Below are positions 982 to 6,484 of a stretch of DNA of 6,484 nt, in pieces. Under the pieces are notes generated by a model. That model worked only from the letters and a program-made list of their open reading frames with translations, searched no databases and was not told the origin of the DNA. The translations under genes and the position numbers were made by a program. The DNA is taken from positions 1-6,484 of the forward strand of contig MNUO01000100.1 of the NCBI GenBank assembly GCA_001871015.1, given 5' to 3'. The number at the start of each line of letters is the position of its first letter. Position 1 is the first letter of the stretch. The stretch is from Candidatus Desantisbacteria bacterium CG1_02_38_46. GTDB lineage: Bacteria; Desantisbacteria; UBA1551; UBA1559.

Positions 982-3633
982 CTACAGGCAGAAGGTAAAA
1001 TATGGACAGAATTGGCAGGAATGTTCATCCTCATCGTCTTTTTCGAAGTTTACTGCAGGATTGAAAATTTCGCCAATGAGGTTTTTAAGCGAAGGCAGAA
1101 ATATTTCTTCCATCCTTAAAGAATTGTCATCTTTTTCTGAAAATAAAAACTCTTCTTTACCATTTCTGATTATGGAAAAACCAGCATTAATGTCGTTCCA
1201 GGACAATTCTGGATTTTTTTCCCTGTAAAGATAAACATAGACAGGTAACTGGAAAGACCTTATCTTGCTTTTCATATCTCTCCTGTCTGTAAAAGGAATG
1301 GAAAGTTTTTTGATTGGTTTCTTAGAGTCGCCTGTCTTATAATCTATTATGTATATTTTTTTCTCTCTCTGGTCTATGCGGTCTATCCTGCCTTTCAGGG
1401 ATATGGAATGATTTATGCCTGGAATGTTATTAATAGCTATCCCATTAAAATTTTCCTCAGTACCGATAATCCTATAGCCTTCTATTTTCTTTTCATTCTC
1501 AAAAAAATTCGACAGGCGAAATTTCGTGATTTTATTCAAAAGATAATTCTCTCCACGCAACTCCCCGAATTTTTCTTTGAGTACAGTATCAATAATCTGT
1601 TCAAGTCTTTCGCGGTCTTTTTCAGTTAATATTATATCACTGCCCTTCAGTGGTTCATAGAATTTATACAAAATTTCATGAATAAAGCTTCCTATTTTAC
1701 CCAAATCCGGTTCCCGTTCTACACTTTCTTTTTCTTCTAATTTAAGAACAGAAGAAAAATAGAATTGTGCTGGACAATTTAAATATGCATCTATACTGGT
1801 TGGAGAGAGAATCATCTGGTTTAAAATCTCCATAGTTTTTTCATCTTTCTTTATAGAAAATGGCTTTCTTGTTATTGATTCAACCCTGAAATTAACAGGT
1901 GTAACTATATCTTTTGGCGCCACTTCTCCTGCTGCCTGTTCTTTTTCCCAGATAATTTCTTCTATGAATCTCGAGCGCGATTCCTTCCCGTATTCCCTGT
2001 AAATAAGATGGACCTCGGCTGCAGTGTTCACGAGGTTCATAAAATGATGTCTGAAAATCTTTTCGCGCTGCCTGTAAGTAGGCAATTCAAGAAATCTGCG
2101 CACGCTGGTTGGAAGAATGGGGTCATATTTATCTTCGTTTGGAATAACACCTTCCTGAACATCTAAAACAATCACCTTTTCAAAAAAAAGATTTCTTGTC
2201 TCTAACATTCCTAAAATCTGCAATCCGCTCAAAGGAATTCCGCTGAAAGGAACGCGCACAGTATTCACATAATATCGGAAAAGGTCAAAAATGTCCTCCT
2301 TTTCCATTTCTTCATTTCCAAGCATAGAATCCTGCATATCTCTGAAGATTGCAAAGAAATTCTTGAAAAATTCACCGGAAAATGGATAAAACTGAGCAGG
2401 TGACCTTGCAAGCAGAAATGAAAAAATATCTTCAAAGCACTTGCCAAGTTGTGAAAAAGTTCGCACATCTTTTAGGTTTCTGATAAGATTAATATGCACT
2501 TCTTTAATTTGCACGAACTCTTTTTCTACTTCTTCGAGATGAATAAACGCTCTGCCAACTCTATCGGAAAGTTTTTCCTCTATCTTATGAATAAGTGTGC
2601 GCGTATCTTCACTGGAAGTGCCAAGTGAAAGATTTTTTACATAGGGATGAAGCAGAATGGACAGATAATCTTTTGCATAATATTCGTCTCCAACTCTTGC
2701 CTCCTGAAAATGCATAATCTGCTCAAGAAGAGTAAACGGCGAGGCTCTTTCCAGGGGGTAACCCATCGAAATATTATATTCCTGATTCAACCCGCTTACC
2801 ACCATTGAAAGTAACGGTATAAGAACATCTGCCTGCGGTAGCACAATTGCTGTTTTTGCAGGGTTAAACCCTTTTTCTAAAATCTCCCCTGCCCTTTTAA
2901 TTTCAGAATGCACATCAAAACCGCTGTGTAGATGAATATTCTCAAAATTCCACTTATCCCATTTATCTTGCACAAAATGAATATTTTTATCCATCGCGTT
3001 TAGATATTTTAAAATTTTTTCTTCAAGGCGCGTTGGAGCAAAAAATCCTCCCGTATAAATAAAACTGAAATCTGGAATAATTCCACTGTCAAGATTTGAG
3101 GCTACGGCTGCATAATCCATTCCCCTCGTGGTGAGTTTGTTGTTCTTCAGCTCTGTGTAAAAATTCTTTTTCACCTCTCCAAGACAGGAGATAATATTTC
3201 TTATCTCCTCTGGAAGAGTGCCAAAAGGTAGATTTTTTAGTTTCTTTTCATCAACCTCTTCAAGTTCCAGTTCGTCAATTATATCGGCTATTTTCAAACC
3301 CCAGGTAAAAAAATGATGAAAACTGTAGTTTGAAAAAAGGTCCATCTCTCTTGCAGCTTTGAAAAGAACCCAGACTTTATTCAAGCCCTCAGCCCGACGC
3401 ATTCCAGGATTCACCTTCAATGAAAAATACTTTATAAATTCATCTATGGAAAAAATCTGTGGTGGGAAAAATGGCGAATTTAATTTTTCCTGAAGCTCTT
3501 TTATGATATAAAAAGAAGGGCGTTTATTGGGAATTAAAATCAGGATATCGGAGAAATCTTTCCCCTTTTTTCTTTCAAGCATATCTTCAACTATTCTTAA
3601 AGGCAAATTATCACTAAATTCAGTCTTTTCCAT
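982..3633 (-). CDS. addB: AddB-like subunit: inactive helicase-like domain plus PD-(D/E)XK nuclease with Fe-S clasp
   Basis: This is the second subunit of an AddAB-type helicase-nuclease that resects double-strand breaks; in the family AddB cuts the 5'-ended strand, and its helicase-like part is known in Bacillus to read Chi. The 883-aa product starts at ATG 3633: GAAGG (3644-3640) lies 6 nt upstream, whereas the in-frame TTG at 3639 would abut that site. The N-terminus has the strand ILILIPNKR (about 30-38) but no GxxGxGKT before it, so ATP binding is not expected. LQILGMLETRNL begins near 471 and leads to VIVLDVQEGVIP, the family's conserved helicase-like core. The nuclease domain holds H652, D751 (GRIDR), D764 and K766 (IDYKTG), and Q795/Y799 (QLPVY). 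Cys620 plus C873, C876 and C882 (CxxC-x5-C at the very C-terminus) match the four ligands of the AddB 4Fe-4S cluster. It follows addA by 201 nt. The protein is shorter than Bacillus AddB (about 1,160 aa) and resembles the Bacteroidota-type subfamily. Confidence 0.9.
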   Translation of the reverse strand: MEKTEFSDNLPLRIVEDMLERKKGKDFSDILILIPNKRPSFYIIKELQEKLNSPFFPPQIFSIDEFIKYFSLKVNPGMRRAEGLNKVWVLFKAAREMDLFSNYSFHHFFTWGLKIADIIDELELEEVDEKKLKNLPFGTLPEEIRNIISCLGEVKKNFYTELKNNKLTTRGMDYAAVASNLDSGIIPDFSFIYTGGFFAPTRLEEKILKYLNAMDKNIHFVQDKWDKWNFENIHLHSGFDVHSEIKRAGEILEKGFNPAKTAIVLPQADVLIPLLSMVVSGLNQEYNISMGYPLERASPFTLLEQIMHFQEARVGDEYYAKDYLSILLHPYVKNLSLGTSSEDTRTLIHKIEEKLSDRVGRAFIHLEEVEKEFVQIKEVHINLIRNLKDVRTFSQLGKCFEDIFSFLLARSPAQFYPFSGEFFKNFFAIFRDMQDSMLGNEEMEKEDIFDLFRYYVNTVRVPFSGIPLSGLQILGMLETRNLFFEKVIVLDVQEGVIPNEDKYDPILPTSVRRFLELPTYRQREKIFRHHFMNLVNTAAEVHLIYREYGKESRSRFIEEIIWEKEQAAGEVAPKDIVTPVNFRVESITRKPFSIKKDEKTMEILNQMILSPTSIDAYLNCPAQFYFSSVLKLEEKESVEREPDLGKIGSFIHEILYKFYEPLKGSDIILTEKDRERLEQIIDTVLKEKFGELRGENYLLNKITKFRLSNFFENEKKIEGYRIIGTEENFNGIAINNIPGINHSISLKGRIDRIDQREKKIYIIDYKTGDSKKPIKKLSIPFTDRRDMKSKIRSFQLPVYVYLYREKNPELSWNDINAGFSIIRNGKEEFLFSEKDDNSLRMEEIFLPSLKNLIGEIFNPAVNFEKDDEDEHSCQFCPYFTFCL

Positions 3634-3639
3634 ATACAA

Positions 3640-3679: not shown

Positions 3680-3827
3680 CAAAAGTCAAAGGCAACTCAA
3701 ACCTTTTCGAAGAGTCCGATTGAAATAATATCAGGACTAAAGTCCTGAGTTACATATCAGGACTAAAGTCCTGAGTTACATATCAGGACTAAAGTCCTGA
3801 GTTACAAACCCTTAGCTTTGACTTTTG
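3680..3827. repeat. Exact 12-bp inverted repeat enclosing the tandem repeats
   Basis: CAAAAGTCAAAG at 3680-3691 is the exact reverse complement of CTTTGACTTTTG at 3816-3827. The arms bracket the three 26-bp units in the addA-addB gap. The right arm is itself part of a short direct repeat (TTTGACTTTTGACTTT up to 3832), so pairing could shift by one register. In a transcript running from addA into addB, the arms could close a multibranch structure holding three hairpins, with the addB ribosome binding site about 36 nt beyond. This might instead be the edge of a small intergenic element. The symmetry is seen directly; the role is not known. Confidence 0.7.
3728..3805. repeat. Three perfect tandem copies of a 26-bp palindromic unit
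   Basis: The units at 3728-3753, 3754-3779 and 3780-3805 are identical base for base. Each contains TCAGGACTAAAGTCCTGA, an 8-bp perfect inverted repeat around AA (or 7 bp with a TAAA loop), followed by GTTACATA-type linker sequence. They lie wholly in the addA-addB gap, 94 nt before the addB ATG and 29 nt after the addA stop. In RNA each unit would form a short stable hairpin. None is followed by a U tract on either strand, so they are not classical intrinsic terminators; transcript processing, stabilisation or attenuation between the two genes is possible. There are no spacers, so this is not a CRISPR array. Confidence 0.95.
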
Positions 3828-3834
3828 ACTTTAT

Positions 3835-6484
3835 CTACACTTTTATTACTTTCATTTCATCCACATAAAGCAGATACCCCTCTATTTTTTTCTCAGGATA
3901 TATTTCTCTCACTGTATTTATATAGTTTGAAACCTGTTTCAGGTGCTCTTCTCGCCGCAGAGAGTCGCATGTGGCGACTTTCGGTGTTGATATCTGGCCT
4001 GAATATTCTTCTCCTGTCTTGTATTCAATAATATAAATCTTATCAGGGGTCATAATGAAACGGTCTATTCTCATAAGATTGGTCTGCCCCCCCCCTGCTT
4101 TCTTGCCGAAAGTAGGCTCTCTGGAAGAGCGAAAGCAAGAGGGGGGGTTGCCCACAACTTCCTTTTCATTGACTCCATCAAAAGAAAACCATTCCCTGAC
4201 TTCATCAATTGAAAAAATCCGGTGCAGGAGTTCTTTTATTTCTCCTGTATCGCCGTTAAACCCTTTTTCCTCTTTAGAAAAATCAACTTTTTCATCTATG
4301 AGATTTCCCACATCTCCCTCAACTTTGTTAATCACAGAAAGAATATAGTGGATAAAATTACCCCTTTCTATCATTTTTCTTCTTTTTGAATCAATAAAAG
4401 TGCCGGTATCTATTTTTTCTCTGCAGATTTTTTCACTCCAGTGAGGAAATGCAAGCGCAACCTGAAAGGAAACAGGAACTTCTTCAACGCGGGGAGCCGG
4501 CACCTGAACAGTTTCTTCTGCGATAACAAATGATTTTTTACCAACTTTTTCTGCCACCTCAGGAAGTTTGCCTGTTTCTTCTTCCTCCTCTTCTTCCTCT
4601 TCTTCTTCGAACAAACCTGCAAAATCACTATCAGAAGGCATAAAAATAAACATCTCGTCTTCAACCCGTGTCAGTGCGACATAAAGGGAATTCAGGTCAT
4701 CCAGTATACCCAATTTCTCCTCAGTATCATAAATCTTTTCAAGCCTTGGAGAAAATGGATAATTACCTGTTTTTGTTATATGCTTGAGCATAAGTTTCCT
4801 GTCTTTTTCAGTAATAAACCAGTTAATATTTTTCTCCCTTGTAATAAAAGCAACAAGCACAACCGCAAAACTCAAGCCCTTTGCCTTGTGGACAGTAGAA
4901 ACTTTGATTGCGTTTATGTGCTCGGGTAGAACGAGCTGGAATGCTTCGCTCTCTCCTTCATTCCAGAAATCCAGAAAACTCTGCAGGGAATTTTCGCCTT
5001 CGTCTTCCCTTTCTTTTATTATTTCAAGAAGCCGCATGAAAAATGCCTCGTTTTCTGGAAACTTTTCAATTAAACTATAAACCTTAAATATTTCAAATAC
5101 CAGATCATACAATGGAAGAAAGCCTACTTTTTTGAAAAATGGCTCTATATACTCTATCCAGAGTTTTTCATATTTATCCCTGAATATTATGTAAAGCAGA
5201 GTTTTCCTTTCGCGGTTGTCCTGAAGGAAAGAAAACATTTCCTTTCTGTCAAATCCACTTGCCCTGGCAAATATTTCCCCGGAAATAAAAGAAGAAAAAG
5301 AAAGGTTATCAGCAGGAAAATTCAGAAATCGCAGAAAACTTACTATTTCATTTATAAACGAATTTTTTCTGAGGTCCATTGTTACTTCTGAAGCAACTGG
5401 ATAATTTTTTTCTGTAAGCCAGTGCGTGACATTTCTTACATCTTCCTGGTGTTTCACAAGAACTGCTATGTCTTCGTAATTATGCCTCGAGATAATGTTT
5501 TCTAAATTAGACAGCATCTCATTTCTCAGGTTTTCAAGTTTTTCGTCCAGATTTTCTCCTTCAATCTTTTTAACTCTGACAAAACCACCTTCCGGATTTC
5601 TCATCCGGGAAACTTCCTGTCTGCTGTTTTTGTAAACATTGATTGCTTTTTCATCAAGACCACTTATTTTTTTAAGGTTTTCTGGATTAAAAATTTTGTT
5701 GTTGAACTTGACGATATTCCTGCGGCTGCGGAAATTATTGTTTAGTGTGTCGGGTTCTTTTGGACCTTTTACCGAGAGAAAATCATCCTTTACTTTATCA
5801 AAAAGACTGACATCTCCTCCCCTGAAGCGGTAAAGCGCCTGTTTTTTATCCCCGACATAAAATAAAGAACCACCCTGCGAAAGACTATTTTCTACTAGCG
5901 GCTTGAGATTATCCCACTGGATTTTATTTGTATCCTGAAATTCATCAATGAGGTAATGATAGATAATGTCTCCTAACATAAAATAAATTTCAGGCACAAC
6001 GCCTTCCCTTTCAATGAATTCATCTAGCCTCAGACTCAATTCATCCATAAAAATAATTCTTTTTCTTCTCTTTATTTCCTCAAGTTCAGACCTCACTCTG
6101 TCTAGGATTGCAATATAAGAATTAAATTTCAAAGAAGCAATATTATAAAAATATTCCTCAATTTTTCTCTGTGTCGCGTGACTGAGCTTGCCAATCCAGC
6201 TCTTCATTTTTTCCAGTTCGCCTGTCTGGACAGTATTGTCGATTGCTTTGAGCATCCTCTTATCTGTCACGCCCTGTTTTTCTTTTTCGAAAATTTTGAG
6301 GATTTCTTCTTTTCCTTCAATCCCTGAATGAAATTCTGCAAATTTCAATCCATGTATACTCTCTTCTTTTCTCAAATTGTTTACATTTTCCTGGATAATT
6401 TTCTTTGGCTGCCAGCTCCTGCGTGCCTCCAGACTCAAGAAAGAATCCAGAAACCTGTCAAAAAGTTTTGTCTCCTCTGTTCCT
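3835..6484 (-). CDS. addA: AddA-like helicase-nuclease subunit, 5' end outside the window
   Basis: This is the motor and nuclease subunit of an AddAB/RecB-type complex: a UvrD-family (SF1A) 3'-5' helicase with a C-terminal nuclease that, in the family, cuts the 3'-ended strand. The visible part is 882 residues and the frame is open to the right edge; a TTG at 6438 is internal, since in-frame codons without a stop continue upstream to 6484. Walker A (motif I) is therefore outside. Seen in order: motif II IDEFQDT (5949-5929), motif III GDKKQALYRFRGGD (5853-5812), NNNFRSRRNIV (about 5740-5710), motif V VSTVHKAKGLSF (about 4905-4870) and motif VI YVALTR (4683-4666). A run of 11 glutamates (4608-4576) links to the nuclease domain, which has GNFIHYIL, Asp in RIDR (4065-4063), EYKTG (4026-4012) and LKQVSNY. 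The nuclease domain carries two in-frame palindromic insertions. No Fe-S cysteine set is present, as expected for AddA. No promoter is visible here. It is followed by addB after a repeat-filled gap. Confidence 0.92.
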   Translation of the reverse strand, partial: GTEETKLFDRFLDSFLSLEARRSWQPKKIIQENVNNLRKEESIHGLKFAEFHSGIEGKEEILKIFEKEKQGVTDKRMLKAIDNTVQTGELEKMKSWIGKLSHATQRKIEEYFYNIASLKFNSYIAILDRVRSELEEIKRRKRIIFMDELSLRLDEFIEREGVVPEIYFMLGDIIYHYLIDEFQDTNKIQWDNLKPLVENSLSQGGSLFYVGDKKQALYRFRGGDVSLFDKVKDDFLSVKGPKEPDTLNNNFRSRRNIVKFNNKIFNPENLKKISGLDEKAINVYKNSRQEVSRMRNPEGGFVRVKKIEGENLDEKLENLRNEMLSNLENIISRHNYEDIAVLVKHQEDVRNVTHWLTEKNYPVASEVTMDLRKNSFINEIVSFLRFLNFPADNLSFSSFISGEIFARASGFDRKEMFSFLQDNRERKTLLYIIFRDKYEKLWIEYIEPFFKKVGFLPLYDLVFEIFKVYSLIEKFPENEAFFMRLLEIIKEREDEGENSLQSFLDFWNEGESEAFQLVLPEHINAIKVSTVHKAKGLSFAVVLVAFITREKNINWFITEKDRKLMLKHITKTGNYPFSPRLEKIYDTEEKLGILDDLNSLYVALTRVEDEMFIFMPSDSDFAGLFEEEEEEEEEEETGKLPEVAEKVGKKSFVIAEETVQVPAPRVEEVPVSFQVALAFPHWSEKICREKIDTGTFIDSKRRKMIERGNFIHYILSVINKVEGDVGNLIDEKVDFSKEEKGFNGDTGEIKELLHRIFSIDEVREWFSFDGVNEKEVVGNPPSCFRSSREPTFGKKAGGGQTNLMRIDRFIMTPDKIYIIEYKTGEEYSGQISTPKVATCDSLRREEHLKQVSNYINTVREIYPEKKIEGYLLYVDEMKVIKV
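3952..4002 (-). repeat. In-frame palindromic insertion in addA between the catalytic YKTG and the QxxxY helix (element 2)
   Basis: The segment encodes SGQISTPKVATCDSLRR. Removing it joins EYKTGEEY to EEHLKQVSNY, which gives the usual close spacing between the catalytic YKTG and the QxxxY helix in this nuclease family, so these 51 nt look added and keep the frame. The DNA holds a hairpin: AGTCGC (3963-3968), loop ATGTG, GCGACT (3974-3979), extended outward to 3960 and 3982 with one G-T pair. On the minus strand it contains CCGAAAGT (3984-3977) and CTCTCTG (3964-3958), both also found in the second insertion of this gene. The exact ends are estimated from protein spacing. Confidence 0.6.
4075..4152 (-). 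repeat. In-frame palindromic GC-rich insertion in addA just before the catalytic RIDR strand (element 1)
   Basis: About 26 codons between EVV and MRIDRF encode a Pro/Gly/Ser/Lys-rich stretch unlike the rest of the domain. The DNA is strongly palindromic: nine C (4087-4095) and TGCTTTC (4096-4102) face GAAAGCA (4131-4137) and seven G (4141-4147), giving a 14-bp stem with a 3-nt bulge and a 28-nt loop. An alternative pairing of TCTTGC (4101-4106) with GCAAGA (4135-4140) is possible. The loop contains CCGAAAGT (4106-4113) and CTCTCTG (4117-4123) on the plus strand, blocks shared with the other insertion, which carries them on the minus strand. The base composition differs sharply from the AT-rich surroundings. 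The limits are set from protein spacing and are approximate. Confidence 0.65.
4576..4608 (-). repeat. Run of 11 Glu codons forming the helicase-nuclease linker of addA
   Basis: Eleven consecutive GAA/GAG codons follow AGLF and precede TGKLPE, between helicase motif VI and the nuclease domain. The mix of GAA and GAG (eight and three) makes simple slippage less likely than for a pure repeat. The position suits a flexible, strongly acidic tether between the two domains, where length and sequence are normally free to vary. Any DNA-mimic or regulatory role would be speculation. Confidence 0.8.

Follow-up and report, generated by a model that had tools for sequence, protein, structure and literature searches.

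REP-like 24-nt hairpins, probably mobile and self-nesting, in addA and other genes of Candidatus Desantisbacteria bacterium CG1_02_38_46

The nuclease domain of AddA in Candidatus Desantisbacteria bacterium CG1_02_38_46 carries a copy of a dispersed 24-nt hairpin unit (consensus CCRAAAGTAGGCNCTCTGGAAGNG), inserted in frame and enclosed by another hairpin, in whose loop it sits. Dozens of further copies, many of them in frame in other genes, are found in the genome, and we regard the unit as a new self-nesting family of REP-like elements, probably moved by a Y1 HUH transposase. The window, i.e. the whole stretch of 6,484 nt that was analysed, lies at one end of contig C45; the genome is a draft of 1.73 Mb (133 contigs, 88% complete).

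The window and the two segments in AddA

In addition to the 3' part of addA, which extends past the high end of the window and of the contig, the window contains two genes that we take to be rsmI and addB (Table 1). Residues 75-882 of AddA match the NCBIfam models for RecB-like helicase (2.4e-57) and addA_alphas (4.2e-37). At about residue 625 (about 4580-4620), between the helicase and nuclease domains, the protein has about eleven consecutive glutamates (LFEEEEEEEEEEETGK). Between addA and addB (3728..3806, minus strand) a further REP-like hairpin of 26 nt is repeated three times in tandem (GTAACTCAGGACTTTAGTCCTGATAT and GTAACTCAGGACTTTAGTCCTGA, both read on the minus strand), and similar copies of it occur elsewhere in the genome (L012).

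Table 1. Features of the window, with the evidence for each.
Feature	Position	Strand	Evidence
rsmI (presumed)	218-901	minus	
addB (presumed)	982-3639	minus	
addA 3' part, helicase and RecB-like nuclease domains	3835..6483	minus	NCBIfam and homologues
Probable derived 24-mer, CCGAAAGT-(12)-CTCTCTG-(CGGCGA)-GAAGAG	3946..3984	minus	local alignment score
Segment 1 (GQISTPKVATCDSLRRE), 16-17 codons inserted in frame	3949..3999	minus	alignment gap
Palindrome AGTCGCATGTGGCGACT, different hairpin family	3963..3979	+	genome matches
Segment 2, composite in-frame insert	4087..4147	+	absent in homologues; empty outer hairpin elsewhere
24-nt unit CCGAAAGTAGGCTCTCTGGAAGAG	4106..4129	+	copies, covariation, insertion register
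GTAG, immediately upstream of the stem	4112..4115	+	sequence; REP hallmark (PMC3733652, PMC8266576)

The original prediction described two related palindromic elements on either side of the RIDR and EYKTG motifs of AddA and ascribed them to a mobile palindrome family that had hit the gene twice. Alignment of the homologues confirmed that the segments flank these motifs and that both peptides are missing from every AddA homologue found, including the closest one (same order, 40% identity). The two sequence blocks were recovered as CCGAAAGT-N3-CTCTCTG at 4106-4123 of the plus strand and as CCGAAAGT-N12-CTCTCTG at 3984-3958 of the minus strand, and the exact block pattern has 9 matches in the genome, compared with 0 for the reversed control. 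Neither of the two outcomes that would have refuted the prediction was obtained, namely homologues that share the segments or a genome lacking further copies of the blocks.

Segment 2 is situated between EKEVV and the catalytic RIDR and encodes, on the minus strand, PPSCFRSSREPTFGKKAGGG, a peptide of about 20 residues (..NPPSCFRSSREPTFGKKAGGGQ..). It consists of two nested elements and not, as had been proposed, of one palindrome: an outer hairpin with arms at 4087-4105 and 4130-4147 (C9-TGCTTTCTTG ... CGAAAGCAAGA-G7) holds the 24-mer in its loop, at the insertion point CCCCCCTGCTTTCTTG^CGAAAGCAAGA..GGGGGG. Both parts recur in the genome with precise empty sites, and the outer hairpin is found without insert (GCTTTCTTGCGAAAGCAA) at four other sites. 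The 24-nt unit itself is composed of the leader CCGAAA, a GTAG foot and the hairpin GCTCT-CTGGA-AGAGC, the closing C being contributed by the flank. A single-sequence AlphaFold model of the AddA nuclease region had a mean pLDDT of 34.6 and was unusable.

Segment 1 is located after EYKTG and before the helix EHLKQV, at a site where a few distant AddA homologues also vary in length. Its blocks CCGAAAGT, CTCTCTG and GAAGAG keep the order of the 24-mer, and its local alignment score against the 24-mer was equalled by 1 of 58,944 random genome windows. An additional 6 nt (CGGCGA), not present in the 24-mer, falls precisely at CTCTG^GAAG, the loop position that nested units occupy in other copies. 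The reported difference in block interval, 3 versus 12 nt, is real; its cause is AGTCGCATGTGGCGACT, which stands in segment 1 where the 24-mer has AGTAGGCT. The only identical copy of this 17-mer lies in trpD, also in frame, and variants occur at three other sites. Judged from its sequence, segment 1 probably derives from a 24-mer that a second palindrome has split, a reading that we hold with moderate confidence.

It is very improbable that the segments are ordinary lineage-specific protein insertions with a chance likeness of their DNA blocks. Segment 1 taken alone is short, and GAAGAGC may, as the original prediction warned, overlap codons for the ancestral EEH, but further copies of this DNA are found in either orientation, in more than one reading frame and between genes, and the homologues are without the segments; for segment 2 chance is refuted. 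A hit by this family is firm for segment 2, whereas for segment 1 both the hit and the relationship to the 24-mer are probable. The original observation was real and the conclusion drawn from it largely right.

The 24-nt unit, its target loops and its nests

With up to one mismatch, CCGAAAGTAGGC occurs at 59 sites of the genome, compared with 6 for the reversed control, and a BLAST search delivers 58 matches. About 40 distinct hairpin copies were recognized (41 contexts scored). The variable stem pair is complementary in 41/41 contexts (25 A-T, 12 T-A, 4 C-G, 0 broken), and because these N positions pair without exception the hairpin is conserved as such. GTAG directly precedes the stem GCNCT..AGNGC; a few copies have TTAG instead.

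The boundaries of the unit were taken from the intersection of sites for which an empty form is seen, either elsewhere in the genome or within the copy, namely CTCTG^GAAG, GTAGTGG^CAGAG, TTG^CGAAAG and TGA^CGAAAG. On our reading, a single register fits all of them, with CC at the start, G at the end and no target duplication, so that insertion consistently follows [G/A]^CC.., usually after G. A MITE, which has terminal inverted repeats and makes a target-site duplication, was rejected as a candidate because filled sites are longer than empty ones by exactly 24 nt and show no such duplication. Shorter cousins have the leader CCRA..GTAGG in common with the 24-mer and carry other hairpins; they are 21 nt (CCGAAGTAGGCTCTGTAAGAG), 17 nt (CCGAGTAGGTCTTGCGA, in tandem arrays), 22 nt and 23 nt long.

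Exact copies outside the order were not found among 84,980 species genomes, a set from which the own and very near genomes were perhaps excluded. A pattern scan of viral contigs gave no match to the family, and a search of Rfam yielded just two sub-threshold chance matches. A diverged nested 48-nt pair lies in frame in contig C19 of another genome of the same order, G001 (L098 1305-1622), in a gene that presumably encodes a RelE-like toxin.

The 24-mer occupies the loops of the GTAGTGG|CAGAG REP, of the GCTTTCTTG|CGAAAGC hairpin and, at CTCTG|GAAG, of its own kind. The first of these REPs, GTAGTGGCAGAGTTTACTCTGC, is present at many places in the genome. The pattern TAGTGG-N{0,30}-CAGAGTTTACTCTG has 95 matches, most with a gap of 0 and about 14 with a gap of 24 (CCRAAAGTAGGCACTCTGGAAGTG), while the remaining ones bridge two adjacent REPs. 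Some of the filled GTAGTGG sites may go back to a single composite that spread as a whole, and not to independent insertions. For GCTTTCTTG-N-CGAAAGCAA the gaps are 0 (4 sites), 17 (3, filled by a 17-mer), 21 (2) and 24 (1), the last being the addA gene of the window, the only place where a 24-mer fills the GCTTTCTTG^CGAAAGCAA hairpin. At C89:7220, in a gene that we read as alanine racemase, the order of nesting seems to be reversed, the outer hairpin sitting within a diverged 24-mer. In contigs C71 and C95 (L112, L117) the GCTTTCTTG^CGAAAGCAA hairpin hosts the 21-nt hairpin GTCCCC ACAA GGGGGAC, a further loop-inserting family.

At seven loci the opener CCRAAAGTAGGCNCTCTG occurs two to five times in succession and is followed by an equal number of closers GAAGNG, forming nests of 48 to 120 nt. 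The mobA nest has five levels, 120 nt plus an outer hairpin, and is in frame. In aroA and the Ca2+-ATPase gene, which are unlinked, the arms mirror each other, opening A,C and closing G,T; in contig C75 they open T,A and close T,A. Duplication of one unit would not give such mirrored unlike arms, which therefore point to a foreign copy inserted into the loop. On the evidence of these arms, the 24-mer is taken to insert into its own loop and so to build nests.

Replication slippage or template switching at hairpins, acting locally and without transposition, is an improbable source of the nests. Tandem 17-nt and 24-nt arrays are present (cca gene, C78, C97) and the units of the five-deep mobA nest are nearly identical, as slippage would have it, but the copies occupy dozens of unlinked sites with precise empty forms, and inner arms that differ from the outer ones yet complement each other (AC/GT, TA/TA) cannot derive from the outer unit. 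As a route of dispersal slippage is largely refuted, and pure slippage was rejected because of the mirrored unlike arms; it could have added extra copies within nests. In the cca gene (C89, L063 16100-16210) two tandem 24-mers form the centre of a CATTGCGAG..GCGAAGCAATC repeat, in frame.

Copies within genes

Copies of the 24-mer family lie in frame at 14 gene loci. Hosts named by NCBIfam are aroA-cmk, etfA, pnp, mobA, uvrA, a member of the larA family, an acyl-CoA dehydratase activase, LL-diaminopimelate aminotransferase (dapL), CCA tRNA nucleotidyltransferase (cca), a TIGR03960/TIGR03936 radical SAM protein and a mannose-1-P guanylyltransferase/phosphoglucosamine mutase fusion (manC/glmM-like); a Ca2+-ATPase, a 1653-aa secreted-type protein and addA are further in-frame hosts. 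Alignments to PDB entries break at the insert in UvrA (residues 150 to 188), the Ca2+-ATPase (454-497) and the aminotransferase DapL, and the alignment of AroA ends at the insert.

Elements were called coding if they lay in an open reading frame of at least 200 aa with at least 15 codons on either side. This holds for 17/42 of the 24- and 21-mers versus 0/17 of the 17-, 22- and 23-mers (Fisher p 0.001 when elements are counted, 0.01 when loci are counted), and elements that do not make up whole codons were found only outside genes. This dependence on length is most readily explained by purifying selection on the reading frame. The 24-nt unit equals 8 codons and is without stop in 5/6 frames, and would therefore be tolerable where a protein has a flexible loop. 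Coding coincidence was rejected as an explanation of the copies because they occur in several frames and outside genes.

Probable mobility and relation to known repeats

With moderate confidence we regard the family as non-autonomous mobile hairpins of the REP kind. The genome shows the anatomy and the dispersal of the unit; as to its movement, we infer that a Y1 HUH transposase (TnpA_REP/RAYT or IS200-like) would recognize GTAG plus the hairpin, carry the unit as single-stranded DNA and place it in hairpin loops. Insertions follow a purine, in most cases G, leave no visible target duplication and often fall within the loop of a different hairpin. The inserts would reside in exposed protein loops and would bring the host no benefit, as selfish and near-neutral elements.

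GTAG is the recognition tag of TnpA_REP, the cleavage chemistry of which has been characterized (PMC8266576). In this genome GTAG or GTAGG stands directly before the stem in several unrelated hairpin families (GTAG-GCNCT.., GTAG-GTC TTGC GAC and GTAG-TG-GCAGAG TTTA CTCTGC). Against movement by a RAYT count the register [G/A]^CC.., which differs from the C|T cleavage of characterized TnpA_REP, and the position of GTAG 6 nt inside the unit, not terminal as in described REPs.

The genome has an intact RAYT-type gene at C109:6925 and another, with a stop, at C60:8541; contig C53 ends in an IS200-like fragment. None of the RAYT-type genes in this 88% complete genome is flanked by the 24-mer family; those of C109 and C60 bear other terminal sequences (AGAAACGTCCCC.. 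and AGGGTCAGACCTC..), and the flanks of the Y1 transposases of G001 are without GTAG hairpins of the family. RAYTs flanked by TIRs that carry different ends are known (PMC3733652), and the literature on GTAG REPs allows for loss of the REPtron. The C109 RAYT-like transposase (L043 1465-2442) carries a DnaA-type DNA-binding domain (NCBIfam DnaA 7.9e-16) fused to its C-terminus, and its gene is flanked by AGGGTCAGACCTCAACATCT inverted ends; a further copy of this end lies at the start of the activase gene in C74 (L062). The end AGAAACGTCCCCTTTTTT of the RAYT-like gene at C60:8541 (L042) is repeated inside the start of the adjacent XerC-like recombinase frame.

The elements could instead be selfish palindromes analogous to Rickettsia palindromic elements (RPEs), spread by machinery unrelated to RAYT/HUH and with a merely coincidental GTAG at the foot, an account that we consider rather unlikely. 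It would fit the in-frame residence in many housekeeping genes, which resembles that of RPEs (PMC3767692), the lack of a cognate transposase among the genes found in the genome and the departure of the register from C|T. Placement of GTAG or GTAGG before the stem is, however, common to the unrelated hairpin families named above, one of which, GTAG-TG-GCAGAG TTTA CTCTGC, is arranged like the Marinomonas REPtron Mb, with GTAG, 2 nt, a short perfect stem and a TTTA loop (PMC8266576).

Like the RPE-1 to RPE-8 and the Wolbachia WPE, the 24-mer is a palindrome tolerated in frame in many conserved genes, inserted into pre-existing ORFs (14 loci), and one RPE has been found in an exonuclease gene of the recB family (PMC3767692). 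With a length of about 100-150 bp, RPEs are specific to Rickettsiales and of other sequence (ATGAC motif in RPE-4, -6 and -7), whereas the unit described here has 24 nt and an unrelated sequence; RPE-4/6 are CGTC-type REPs (PMC3733652). Self-nesting is not mentioned for RPE or WPE in the literature examined.

With the GTAG REPs and REPINs that accompany RAYTs (PMC3733652, PMC8266576) the family shares short dispersed hairpins, an unpaired GTAG at one stem foot, complementary stem variants, several families per genome and occasional in-frame intragenic copies. It is a palindrome within the range of 20-40 bp and of high copy number (24 nt, 41 contexts, 59 leader sites), and shows a similar preference for repair genes, there uvrA and the recB family, here uvrA and addA. 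In contrast to GTAG REPs, it has the leader CCRAAA inside the mobile unit, 5' of a GTAG that is thus not at the repeat terminus, inserts in the register [G/A]^CC and not C|T, systematically enters hairpin loops including its own, and has no cognate RAYT located in the genome. Because CCRAAA precedes GTAG inside the unit, we call the family REP-like and not a full member.

REPs within larger palindromes are also known from T. roseum GTAG-23 and A. variabilis GTAG-15, with empty target palindromes for GTAG-23, but insertion into the same element or coding in-frame nests are not described there (PMC3733652). A paper of 2013 already described REPs that sit in frame within genes and favour uvrA and recB (PMC3733652), and RPEs within genes were described still earlier. 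Intragenic repeats are thus known elsewhere, and self-nesting is the new twist; no description of REP recursion into its own loop was found in the open-access literature, by which novelty is not proven.

Dispersal of REPs has been inferred and is poorly understood. The exact 24-nt difference between filled and empty sites, together with the loop targets, defines a fixed register of insertion and a rule for targets that one enzyme would suffice to test, and the nested copies record the order of insertion. On a more tentative reading, a 24-nt mobile unit that prefers single-stranded hairpin loops, its own included, would build recursive nests and would be a standing source of 8-residue modules in housekeeping proteins of an isolated bacterial order. 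More than a dozen conserved enzymes contain 8 to over 35 foreign residues from one repeat family; the in-frame inserts form a natural experiment in loop tolerance, in which proteins gain small additional loops from hairpin repeats.
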